Assembly: GCA_945861755.1 (NCBI GenBank)
Contig: CAMAVQ010000007.1
Span: 1 to 64,000 of the forward strand
Length of the DNA stretch: 64,000 nt
Direction: 5' to 3'
Source of the DNA: Gemmatimonas phototrophica
Lineage (GTDB): Bacteria; Latescibacterota; UBA2968; UBA8231
This document shows, one piece after another, positions 32,646 through 36,280 of this stretch. Both the position numbers and the translations under genes were made by a program. The notes under the pieces were generated by a model. The model was not told where the DNA came from. It searched no databases and saw only the letters and a program-made list of their open reading frames with translations. The first letter of the stretch is position 1, and each line of letters begins with the position of its first letter.

Positions 32646-33554
32646 TCAGCCGCCCAGCCAGGTCAGTACTAGGGCGATGGCCACCGGGCTGGTCAAGGTG
32701 GAGCCCAGCAGGATGCCGGTCAGCAATTCGGGCCGGGTGTCGAAACGCACCGCCAGCAACAGGACATTGATGGCCGTGGGCAGGCAGGCGCACACCAGGA
32801 GCAGCTGGAGCATCAGGCCTTGGGCTCCCAGCATCAGGGCCAGGCCTACTCCCAGGGCGGGCACGGCCAGGACGCGGAGGACCAAGCTGGCACCCAAGGT
32901 GGCGGAGAGTTGGCCGCGCAGGGGGATGTTGGCGAGCTGAAGGCCCAATACCACGGTCGAGACCAAGGGGCCGGCCTTGCCGATGGACTCGCCGGCGACC
33001 AAGAGGGCCGGCGGCAGGCTCAGGCTGAGGGCGTGCACCAGCAAGGCCAGCAGCACCGCGTAGATCAGGGGCAGGCGAAAGACGCTGGCCAGGGCCTGCC
33101 GCAGGTTCTGGCGGCTGGCCGCCGCAATGTACACCCCCAGAGAGCTGGACATGATTTCGTTGTATACCAGGAGCAACATCATTCCCGACAGGGCCTGGTC
33201 GCCCAGAGCGAAGAGGACCACCGGTATCCCGTAGCTGCCCATGTTGAAGTTGGTCATCGACAGCAGCACCGCGCTGCGGGTGGCCCGATCCCAACCTGCC
33301 AGTCGCCCAGCTGCCCAGGCCAGGGCGCCGGCCAGCACTACCGCCGACAAGTACCAGCCCAGAAGCAGCGCTGCCTCCCCGCCGGTGAGGGGGTTGCGCA
33401 CCAGCGAGGTGAAGAGCAGCAGCGGCATCAAGATGTAGAGGCAGACTTCGGCGAGGGGCCTCGGGTCGATGTGCCGCAGCCGGCCGAGGAGGTAACCGGC
33501 TCCGGCCAGGGTGAAAAAGGGCATCAGGGCTTGTAGCAACAACTCGATGTTCAA
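32646..33554 (-). CDS. AEC (auxin efflux carrier) family transporter
   Basis: The 302-residue membrane protein has about ten hydrophobic segments. 'SMTNFNMGSYGIPVVLFALG' and 'CLPTAINVLLLAVRF' are the conserved AEC signatures in the two halves. Bacterial members carry small organic acids such as malate. It lies directly upstream of the RraA-like gene on the same strand, so import or export of a keto or hydroxy acid handled by that enzyme is plausible. Confidence 0.87.
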   Translation of the reverse strand: MNIELLLQALMPFFTLAGAGYLLGRLRHIDPRPLAEVCLYILMPLLLFTSLVRNPLTGGEAALLLGWYLSAVVLAGALAWAAGRLAGWDRATRSAVLLSMTNFNMGSYGIPVVLFALGDQALSGMMLLLVYNEIMSSSLGVYIAAASRQNLRQALASVFRLPLIYAVLLALLVHALSLSLPPALLVAGESIGKAGPLVSTVVLGLQLANIPLRGQLSATLGASLVLRVLAVPALGVGLALMLGAQGLMLQLLLVCACLPTAINVLLLAVRFDTRPELLTGILLGSTLTSPVAIALVLTWLGG

Positions 33555-33651: not shown

Positions 33652-35004
33652 TCACTGCGAGCGTTTCACCGGCTGGTTCACCCTCCCGAAGCCCCGCCTG
33701 AAATCCGTCAGATCCGCCTGGTCTACCTTGCCGTCCCCGTTCAGGTCATAGATGGAATTGTAGGCGGGTTCGCCCCGCCGTTGGCCAACGTGCTGGGCCA
33801 GGGCAAAGAAATCCTCCATATCCACGGTTTCGTCGCCGTTGAAATCGGGGACGGGGTGGAAGCTGACCCGCAGGAGCGGGGAACCAGCGCTCCGCTGGCC
33901 CGCCGCGTCCACGGCGTACACCCGGTAGGCATAGACCCCAGCTCTCCAGGCTTCGCTGAAACGGGTGCCGGTTTCCTTTCCCACCATGAGCCAGGCCGCC
34001 TCGAGGTTGGCCAGGTCCCTGCGGTAGACCTGGTAGCGACAGGGGTTCTGGCGGGGGCGGTGACTCCAGGAAAGGGTGAGCAGGGTTGCCGAATCGTTTG
34101 CCAGGCGCAGGTCATCGGGGGGAGGTAGGAGGGTGGTGAAAAAGGGCGTCTCGCTGTCGAAACGGCTCTCGTACCCGTGCGCGACCAGCCAGGAGGTGAC
34201 CTCCTCGAGCCGCTGGCGCACCTGCCAGGTGATGTCGTGGTCAAAGAGAAAGGACTCGTGGGTGAAGACCTGCACGTTTTGGGAAGCGTACGGCTGCCTG
34301 AAGAGACTATCCAGCTTGCCCGGCACCCGCGTCCCCACGGTGGTGTGGGCGCCATCTAGAGCGCGGAAATCGCGCTCGATCCAGATGTCGGTCTGGGTGA
34401 AGAGGAGGTCCTCGGTCTGGTCCCACCAGTAGTCGCATTGGTTGACGACGTCGCTCCGTGCCGGGCTCAGGTAATAGTTTTTGTACCCGGGAACGGCTCC
34501 GTATACCCCCTGGATGCCAGCCTGGTGCCAGGTCCGCACACAGTCGCGGTTGCCGCTCCAATAATGGCTGCGCATCAAAGGGTCCCAGATCTGGGGGCCG
34601 GCAAAACGCAGCACCTGGTCGCGGACCGCATCAAAGTCGTCCAGGGCCTGTGCGGCAGTGGCCTGGGCGTAGGGAGTCGTGGGGAGCATGGCGCGGGCGT
34701 GGAAACCTAGATGCAGCCAGGAGGCATTTTGGGCCCATTCGTCGCGGAACTTGTCGGGGGTCTGGCTCAGGTCGAACTGCGGGTAGGTGGTCCCCTGGTA
34801 AAAGAAGAAAAAGGTAAAAACCGCCCCATAGCGCCGGTGTAAGTCACGGGCAAAGGCCAGCACCGGATGGTCGAAGAGCGAGGGATATTTTTTGGGCTGG
34901 CGCGCTAACTCGGCCAGCAGATCGGCGGTGTCGTCCACGGTGATGGAGAAGCGGGGAGCCGGGTCGGGGTCAAAATAAAGATTGATACTGGTGACCAGGA
35001 TCAC
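33652..35004 (-). CDS. Deacetylase-like barrel with Fn3-like and dockerin repeats (downstream half of a split gene)
   Basis: The 450-residue frame opens at a GTG overlapping the stop of the upstream ORF. It starts with a deacetylase-like barrel ('FSITVDDTADLL', 'SLFDHPVLAFARDLHRRYG'), then a fibronectin-like segment ('LLTLSWSHRP', 'AYRVYAVDAAG'), then two EF-hand-like dockerin repeats ('DFNGDETVDMEDF', 'DLNGDGKVDQADL'). Such parts belong outside the cell, yet this frame has no signal peptide. The adjacent upstream ORF supplies one, and removing one copy of a 5-bp repeat joins the two frames. Catalytic residues of an active esterase cannot be confirmed. The 97-bp gap to the AEC gene shows nothing notable. 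Confidence 0.65.
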   Translation of the reverse strand: MILVTSINLYFDPDPAPRFSITVDDTADLLAELARQPKKYPSLFDHPVLAFARDLHRRYGAVFTFFFFYQGTTYPQFDLSQTPDKFRDEWAQNASWLHLGFHARAMLPTTPYAQATAAQALDDFDAVRDQVLRFAGPQIWDPLMRSHYWSGNRDCVRTWHQAGIQGVYGAVPGYKNYYLSPARSDVVNQCDYWWDQTEDLLFTQTDIWIERDFRALDGAHTTVGTRVPGKLDSLFRQPYASQNVQVFTHESFLFDHDITWQVRQRLEEVTSWLVAHGYESRFDSETPFFTTLLPPPDDLRLANDSATLLTLSWSHRPRQNPCRYQVYRRDLANLEAAWLMVGKETGTRFSEAWRAGVYAYRVYAVDAAGQRSAGSPLLRVSFHPVPDFNGDETVDMEDFFALAQHVGQRRGEPAYNSIYDLNGDGKVDQADLTDFRRGFGRVNQPVKRSQ

Positions 35005-35408
35005 GGCGCCGTGCCGTGCCGCGCCGTAACCTCCACCTCCGTCAGGGGGGTTTGCAGCGGCAGAAGGTAGTAGAAGGGGGTGTAGCGGGCCGGGTCCACC
35101 AGCAGCTGGCCCAGGGCATGGGTGAGGCGCCAATACTGCCCTTCCTGGCGCCAGGTCACCCCCAGGGCGGGCAGGTCGCCGGCGATGGGCCGCACCTGCT
35201 GGCCGTTGACGCGCACCTCAAAGCCGGCAGGGGCCAGGCCCACCAACCCCGCCTGGATGCCGGGTGCTGGGGAAACGTCGCAGCGCGGGGTGAGAATGAG
35301 CCCGTCCACCGGGCAGAGCAGTTGCAGTTCGGGATTTTGCCCGCTGGCTGGGGCGGGCGGCCAGCAGCACAGCCCCAGCAGCATAACGATCGCGAGTTTG
35401 GCGGCCAT
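35001..35408 (-). CDS. Signal peptide and beta-domain (upstream half of a split gene)
   Basis: The 135-residue ORF has a clear signal peptide ('MAAKLAIVMLLGLCCWPP...PASG') and a beta-rich segment with 'GFEVRVNGQQVRP' and 'LTEVEVTARHG' before stopping. In related deacetylase-like proteins a short beta domain normally precedes the barrel. At the end the minus strand reads CGGCA CGGCA CGGCG; with one copy fewer, translation would continue as 'TARHGAVILVTS' into the next ORF. I read it as the 5' part of one ancestral gene. I used ATG 35408; the track start is a TTG four codons upstream. Confidence 0.6.
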   Translation of the reverse strand: MAAKLAIVMLLGLCCWPPAPASGQNPELQLLCPVDGLILTPRCDVSPAPGIQAGLVGLAPAGFEVRVNGQQVRPIAGDLPALGVTWRQEGQYWRLTHALGQLLVDPARYTPFYYLLPLQTPLTEVEVTARHGTAP

Positions 35409-35483: not shown

Positions 35484-35521
35484 TTAACCTGTTGTGTATA
35501 TCTCACAGAAAAGAGGACGCC

Positions 35522-36280
35522 ATGGCCCCTCCAATTGCAGTGCAATTATACACGGTTCGGGACCTGTTGCCCGGGGATTTTGCCGGCACCGTCAAGCGCA
35601 TCGCCCAGATCGGTTACGCCGGGGTGGAAACCGGCGGCTTTCAGGGTATCACCACCCAGGAGGCGGCCCGCCTCTTTGCCGGCCTGGGGCTCAAGGTGCC
35701 CAGCATCCACGCGGCCCTGCCCCTGGGCGACCAGGAAAAGTCCACGGTGGAACTGGCTCAGGCGTTGGGCGTCCACCGGGTGGTGACTAGCACCCCCCGC
35801 GACGCCTTTGCCTCGGCGGAGACGGTGCGCGCCCTGTGTGATACCTGGAACCAGGCCCAACAGGTGGCCCAGCGGCACGGTCTCGAGCTGCATCTGCATA
35901 ACCACTGGTGGGAGTTCAAGCCGGTGGGCGACCGCAATGGCTTGGATCTGTTACTCGAGTACCTGAATCCGAAAATTGGCATCCAGGTAGACACCTACTG
36001 GGCGCAGACCGGCGGGTACGACCCGGCCGCGGCAGTCGAGAAAGTGGGAGCGCGGGCACCCCTGCTGCACATCAAGGACGGTCCCTGCGACAAACCCGAG
36101 TCGCCGATGGTGGCAGCGGGCCAGGGCAAGGTGGACTTTCACGCGGTGATGAAGGCCGCCGGCACCCACGCCGAATGGCTGATCGTCGAAATGGACCGCT
36201 GCGCCACCGATATGATGACCGCCGTGGAGCAGAGTTACCAGTATCTGGCCAGCCAGGGTCTGGGCCGGGGAAGGGCATAG
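35522..36280 (+). CDS. Sugar phosphate isomerase/epimerase (xylose isomerase-like TIM barrel)
   Basis: The 252-residue protein begins at the ATG after AGAGGA; the track start is 10 codons further up. The barrel shows 'IAVQLYTVRDLL', 'GYAGVETGGF', 'LHLHNHWWEF' (metal His region) and a final 'WLIVEMDRC' with the metal Glu. These enzymes interconvert keto and aldo sugars or inositol derivatives. It is 9 bp from the ThuA gene, a frequent pairing in sugar catabolism clusters. Substrate unknown. Confidence 0.88.
   Translation: MAPPIAVQLYTVRDLLPGDFAGTVKRIAQIGYAGVETGGFQGITTQEAARLFAGLGLKVPSIHAALPLGDQEKSTVELAQALGVHRVVTSTPRDAFASAETVRALCDTWNQAQQVAQRHGLELHLHNHWWEFKPVGDRNGLDLLLEYLNPKIGIQVDTYWAQTGGYDPAAAVEKVGARAPLLHIKDGPCDKPESPMVAAGQGKVDFHAVMKAAGTHAEWLIVEMDRCATDMMTAVEQSYQYLASQGLGRGRA

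Follow-up and report, generated by a model that had tools for sequence, protein, structure and literature searches.

The closest described parallels to the locus reported here are the young pseudogenes of Salmonella that result from short frameshifting indels (PMC2916853) and the pentanucleotide contingency loci of Neisseria such as opa (PMC7157529). With the former it shares a well-preserved gene carrying a single frameshift, as well as relatives that have deletions or no gene at all, but it differs in that none of the retained copies found among the sampled genomes of the phylum is intact, each having a lesion of its own, and in that all are known from metagenome assemblies. With opa it shares a frame-shifting 5-bp unit within the gene of a surface or secreted protein, but the run found here has 2.8 units while meningococcal opa, like other pentamer loci of this kind, has five or more in most genes (PMC7157529), and here the repeat is missing from the orthologue. 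At the protein level, the central barrel-like domain resembles the polysaccharide deacetylases (NodB homology domain, PF01522) in having a DD motif after a first strand, a conserved His (FHA), a late THE and a predicted alternation of strands and helices, but it has no detectable sequence or profile similarity to them. It also shares the motifs DDT, SxFD, WLxxxFHA and FTHE with the C-terminal domain of the neck protein of phage Mushu (XMN68652.1), although that domain sits on a part of the virion neck, whereas the barrel in the window (the whole stretch of 64,000 nucleotides that was analysed) goes together with a signal peptide, an Fn3-like domain and a dockerin. A search of the literature on dockerins or pseudogenes of Latescibacterota returned nothing bearing on the split gene.

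A sequence-only reading had described two ORFs at this locus separated by the repeat CGGCA CGGCA CGGCG, and rechecking the sequence and the frames gave the same ORFs, coordinates and repeat (Table 1). The minus strand at the junction reads ...GAG GTG GAG GTT ACG GCG CGG CAC GGC ACG GCG CCG TGA, in which CGGCA occupies 35021-35017 and again 35016-35012, and CGGCG occupies 35011-35007. The upstream ORF encodes, as had been proposed, a probable signal peptide, recognised by eye, and a beta-domain, which is small and has a sub-threshold match to BiPBP_C (E 0.006). The downstream frame, which is -1 relative to the upstream frame, encodes the barrel, the Fn3-like domain (weak) and the dockerin (above the Pfam cut-off), and has no signal peptide.

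By itself the period-5 repeat is unremarkable. The window is G+C-rich and such runs are common in it (72 of at least 10 bp observed against 71 expected, and 2 of at least 14 bp against 0.5), and therefore the repeat alone proves nothing. What raises it above chance is the orthologue in G002, a genome of the same genus, which has an unbroken frame here and lacks 5 bp at the exact site. Elsewhere in the window, a short stretch at 47336-47542 matches contigs of G001, G002 and G003 away from its own syntenic position and may be a dispersed repeat or a paralogous segment.

Among the 60 relatives searched, G002 was the only one to encode the barrel (contig JADZBP010000312, 'Candidatus Latescibacterota bacterium isolate SJ679'). 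Counting the window's own genome, the barrel was found in 2 of the 47 genomes of the class and in 2 of the 386 genomes of the broad sample, where profile searches gave additional matches that were only weak and short and were taken as chance. Searches of genome contigs for further homologues returned the G002 contig alone, and no further barrel homologue was found in the viral contigs scanned or in plasmids. The locus is syntenic in G002, with the divergent isomerase-like gene 92% identical and the transporter on the other side 77% identical. In G002 the N-terminal domain, the barrel and the Fn3 part form a single open frame of 592 codons that runs across the junction, and the DNA alignment with the window is gap-free around the junction but for one gap of 5 bp in G002, which falls on the repeat. 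The upstream ORF is 66% identical to the N-terminal part of the G002 orthologue (tblastn) and the downstream part is 72% identical to it as far as the dockerin. Once the 5-bp difference is set aside the proteins align without gaps, with EVEVTARHG followed by AVILVTSINLYF in the window and EVEIEARQG followed by TEVLVASADLYF in G002. G012, from another genus of the same family, has a distant homologue of about 32-38% identity that is unbroken from the beta-domain into the DD motif. Since G002 is continuous and 5 bp shorter, and G012 is continuous as well, the comparison indicates that the ancestral gene was fused and that the extra unit is a derived frameshift. The proposal that a surplus 5-bp unit divides what was a single gene is thereby borne out by an orthologue that is fused and differs at the repeat by exactly these 5 bp. 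The layout of beta-domain and barrel, which had been given for the family, is seen in full in G002 and in part in G012 and is the ancestral one. The homologues in G002 and G012 are fused, and none in the form of two separate genes was found.

Table 1. Features of the split gene and its neighbours in the window.
Feature	Positions	Strand	Basis or remark
Upstream ORF (signal peptide and beta-domain), 135 aa, from ATG at 35408; TGA (35003-35001) met owing to the frameshift	35001..35408	-	sequence, ORFs
Probable signal peptide, 23 aa, MAAKLAIVMLLGLCCWPPAPASG	35340..35408	-	by eye; similar N-termini in G001 and G002
Exact period-5 run CGGCACGGCACGGC, 14 bp (2.8 units), containing the 5-bp unit that the orthologue lacks	35008..35021	-	5-bp insertion relative to G002
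Downstream part, -1 frame, already open ahead of 35133 and closed by TGA at 33654-33652; GTG at 35004-35002, overlapping the TGA of the upstream ORF, as a possible restart	33652..35004	-	sequence, ORFs
Barrel-like domain, unnamed family, motifs VDDT, FHA and FTHE	34117..34962	-	homologue comparison
Fn3-like domain	33850..34116	-	sub-threshold matches
Type I dockerin	33706..33846	-	PF00404, 36.6 bits, above cut-off
Downstream neighbour, membrane transporter of the auxin-efflux-carrier type	32646..33554	-	named by eye; conserved neighbour in G002
Divergent neighbour, sugar-phosphate isomerase/epimerase-like, anchors synteny	35502..36280	+	named by eye

The G002 copy is itself broken further along. 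Its dockerin carries a frameshift caused by a 7-bp tandem duplication, GGTGAAC GGTGAAC (L009 2674-2700, G002:C312), which is absent from the window, and past the duplication the rest of the dockerin lies in another frame, with a comparable ending (VKRPER compared with VKRSQ). In G001, the closest relative at the flanking genes, a remnant (L044 1483-1817, G001:C199) has the first ~79 residues joined out of frame to the last ~30 residues of the dockerin, consistent with a large internal deletion, and the neighbouring transporter gene is missing along with the barrel. The G012 copy ends soon after the first barrel motif, with no barrel in the rest of its 4.65-kb contig; the G001 and G012 lesions each come from a single assembly, and all of the genomes are metagenome assemblies. 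In G003 and G004 there was no trace of the gene beside those flanking genes that could be read. The isomerase-like gene of G004 (L071 198-967, G004:C2) reads in two frames owing to a 1-bp difference near the contig end. From these assemblies, every copy found in the Latescibacterota sample appears to be broken, each differently, and the window allele would be one of several independent losses of the gene within the genus.

Pairwise dN/dS values were obtained by the Nei-Gojobori method, which averages over both lineages and cannot date the break. Between the window and G002 they were 0.31 for the N-terminal part, 0.20 for the barrel, 0.40 for the Fn3 part and 0.28 for the dockerin beyond the G002 duplication, and between the window and G001 the N-terminal part gave 0.29. 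Flanking genes gave 0.07-0.19 and the transporter 0.32, the neighbours spanning 0.09-0.32 in the comparison of the window with G002. Third codon positions take most of the substitutions, both before and after each of the two lesions. Ratios of 0.2-0.4 show, as read from these alignments, that there was past selection on the frame, and taken with the third-position substitutions they indicate that a rather loose selection maintained the frame over most of the period since the split, and that the lesions are young. Relaxed selection after the break does not show in these values, the break being too recent or the data too few.

Errors of assembly are known to produce false pseudogenes, and many of the apparent ones in public genomes are of this kind (PMC11017572). 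The extra unit could be an assembly or consensus error or belong to a minority strain, with the organism having an intact gene. The source genome is an assembly of 255 contigs with 5.9% contamination, and selection on the frame would also fit such an error. As a control, the window and about 790 kb of other sequence from the same genome were aligned with 40 contig stretches of G001 and 20 of G002 together with the syntenic contigs, giving a frameshift background that is a sample of stretches up to 20 kb, with 90 kb (G001) and 63 kb (G002) aligned. Apart from the two in the split gene, these ~150 kb contained no tandem duplication of 5 or 7 bp and none of similar size that breaks a frame. The remaining net frame-changing gaps, counted as simple clusters and not sorted by gene, were mostly of 1-2 bases; there was also one of 14 bp, besides a few small compound ones. 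Around most of these gaps the sequence showed no codon periodicity. General noise would hit all genes, and the background therefore argues for a property of the gene and not of the assemblies, although it falls short of proving the window allele. The independent and different lesions of the relatives, one of them a large deletion, and the clean flanks at the repeat also make an error less likely, and we regard it as improbable, though the most serious competitor to a genuine mutation. Of the three origins that had been suggested for the repeat, namely a recent mutation, an on/off switch and an assembly error, it is the recent mutation that is best supported.

The switch fares poorly. Slipped-strand phase variation, in which the 5-bp repeat would reversibly turn the gene on and off, has in its favour that the unit is not a multiple of three and lies in the coding region of a surface-type protein, that slippage could take the unit out again and that the congener G002 also has a short tandem duplication. 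However, there are only 2.8 units, where frequent slippage calls for about five or more pentamers; in meningococcal opa, tracts of five pentamers or fewer mutate at 0.007 per month compared with 0.09-0.16 for longer ones (PMC7157529). Furthermore, the repeat is absent from G002, which is broken elsewhere by a 7-bp unit, and G001 is broken by a deletion, so that a conserved switch locus is not seen, since the G002 break lies at another site and involves another unit. We therefore consider a switch very unlikely. Slightly less likely still is the possibility of two functional, translationally coupled genes, with the GTGA overlap allowing a restart that yields a cytoplasmic barrel-dockerin protein. 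The GTG does overlap the TGA stop in a common 4-bp geometry, but the G002 and G012 homologues are fused, a dockerin without a signal peptide would find no partner inside the cell, and by eye no Shine-Dalgarno motif lies at the usual distance ahead of the GTG. Programmed -1 ribosomal frameshifting would yield the full protein from the two frames and would agree with the -1 position of the downstream frame, but no X XXY YYZ slippery heptamer was seen by eye at the overlap, and since the frame is unbroken at this point in the relatives, there is no conserved signal. It is the least credible of these alternatives and can almost be dismissed.

The dockerin is of type I, with PF00404 matches of 32.5-36.6 bits against a curated cut-off of 22.9. 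Fn3 matches are weak (PF00041 E 0.09 in the window and 0.013 in G002; fibronectin-type PDB chains E about 0.03). The barrel has no relative in Pfam, NCBIfam or PDB sequences. Five PF01522 genes of the same genome are recognised by Pfam while the barrel is not, and comparison of the barrel with two of these proteins gave no profile similarity (hhalign probability 1%). A deacetylase identity was thus considered against Pfam, NCBIfam, PDB sequences and the profiles of the genome's own polysaccharide deacetylases, all negative, and no sequence test upholds the description of the gene as deacetylase-like; DDT, FHA and FTHE are no more than suggestive motifs. Structure prediction was of low confidence, with a pLDDT of 38 for the G002 protein as far as the dockerin and a mean of 48 for an AlphaFold model of the barrel alone, the first half of which was better (ten-residue means 42-87) and showed strand/helix alternation. 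With this poor model, a Foldseek search of the PDB gave weak TIM-barrel enzymes as best matches, none at E <= 0.001, and a search of viral models gave one match, to the uncharacterised siphovirus protein A0A8S5UN50 (E 6e-7), which is consistent with a phage link of the barrel.

The sole outside relative of the barrel that was found, with a tblastn E of 1e-11, is the C-terminal half of a Streptococcus phage Mushu neck protein, which is 25% identical over 264 residues with D10, D11, H88 and F233-T-H-E236 conserved. This homologue lies at L103 2983-3762 (PQ621706.1), and the N-terminal 88 residues of the neck protein match the neck passage proteins of other phages. The Mushu protein looks like a domain swap on the virion. 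Carbohydrate-binding modules occur on the neck passage proteins of lactococcal phages of the 936 type (PMC6669499), which makes a carbohydrate-directed role of the barrel plausible by analogy. On present sequences the barrel appears to be a small, rare and unnamed family that includes a Streptococcus phage neck protein. The same genome has six cohesin matches (PF00963) above the cut-off and seven dockerin matches, and it is thus reasonable to infer that the protein would dock onto surface cohesin proteins. Three contigs of this genome (C1, C13 and C25; loci L001, L003, L111, L112 and L114) contain frames of 1700-2100 codons with cohesin and dockerin matches close together, and these large frames may represent a cohesin-dockerin system in Latescibacterota. 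The product of the intact gene was probably an uncharacterised, dockerin-bearing, secreted and carbohydrate-active protein.

We favour, with good though not complete confidence, a recent slipped-strand 5-bp duplication in a gene that its genus is losing, which would make the gene a young pseudogene. We infer an ancestral single gene for a secreted protein with signal peptide, beta-domain, barrel, Fn3-like domain and dockerin, in which a 5-bp unit would have been duplicated recently in the window lineage, most simply by slippage between two pre-existing copies of CGGC. Ribosomes starting at the signal peptide would then stop after 135 codons, and the barrel, Fn3 and dockerin, which lie in the -1 frame, would have no signal ahead of them. 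Without it the protein would no longer be exported or docked onto the cell's cohesin proteins, and it is for this reason that the gene would be a young pseudogene. It is possible that the downstream part is translated via coupling at the GTGA overlap, which would count against the pseudogene reading. There is also a slim chance that drift does not account for the repeated breakage in every Latescibacterota copy found, and that selection has favoured the loss of a carbohydrate-active protein which is exposed and anchored by its dockerin, for instance because of pressure from phages or because the substrate changed. Short tandem duplications would then be an initial step that can still revert.

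Automatic annotation would list a secreted and a cytoplasmic gene at this locus, and it is unlikely that either of them is real. As a recent duplication, the locus would be a clean example of early-stage gene loss, in which the parent frame in its fused state and the precise unit that was duplicated can both be read from a congener, while deletion and absence in further relatives represent other stages. The barrel family shared with a phage neck protein may merit a family model.
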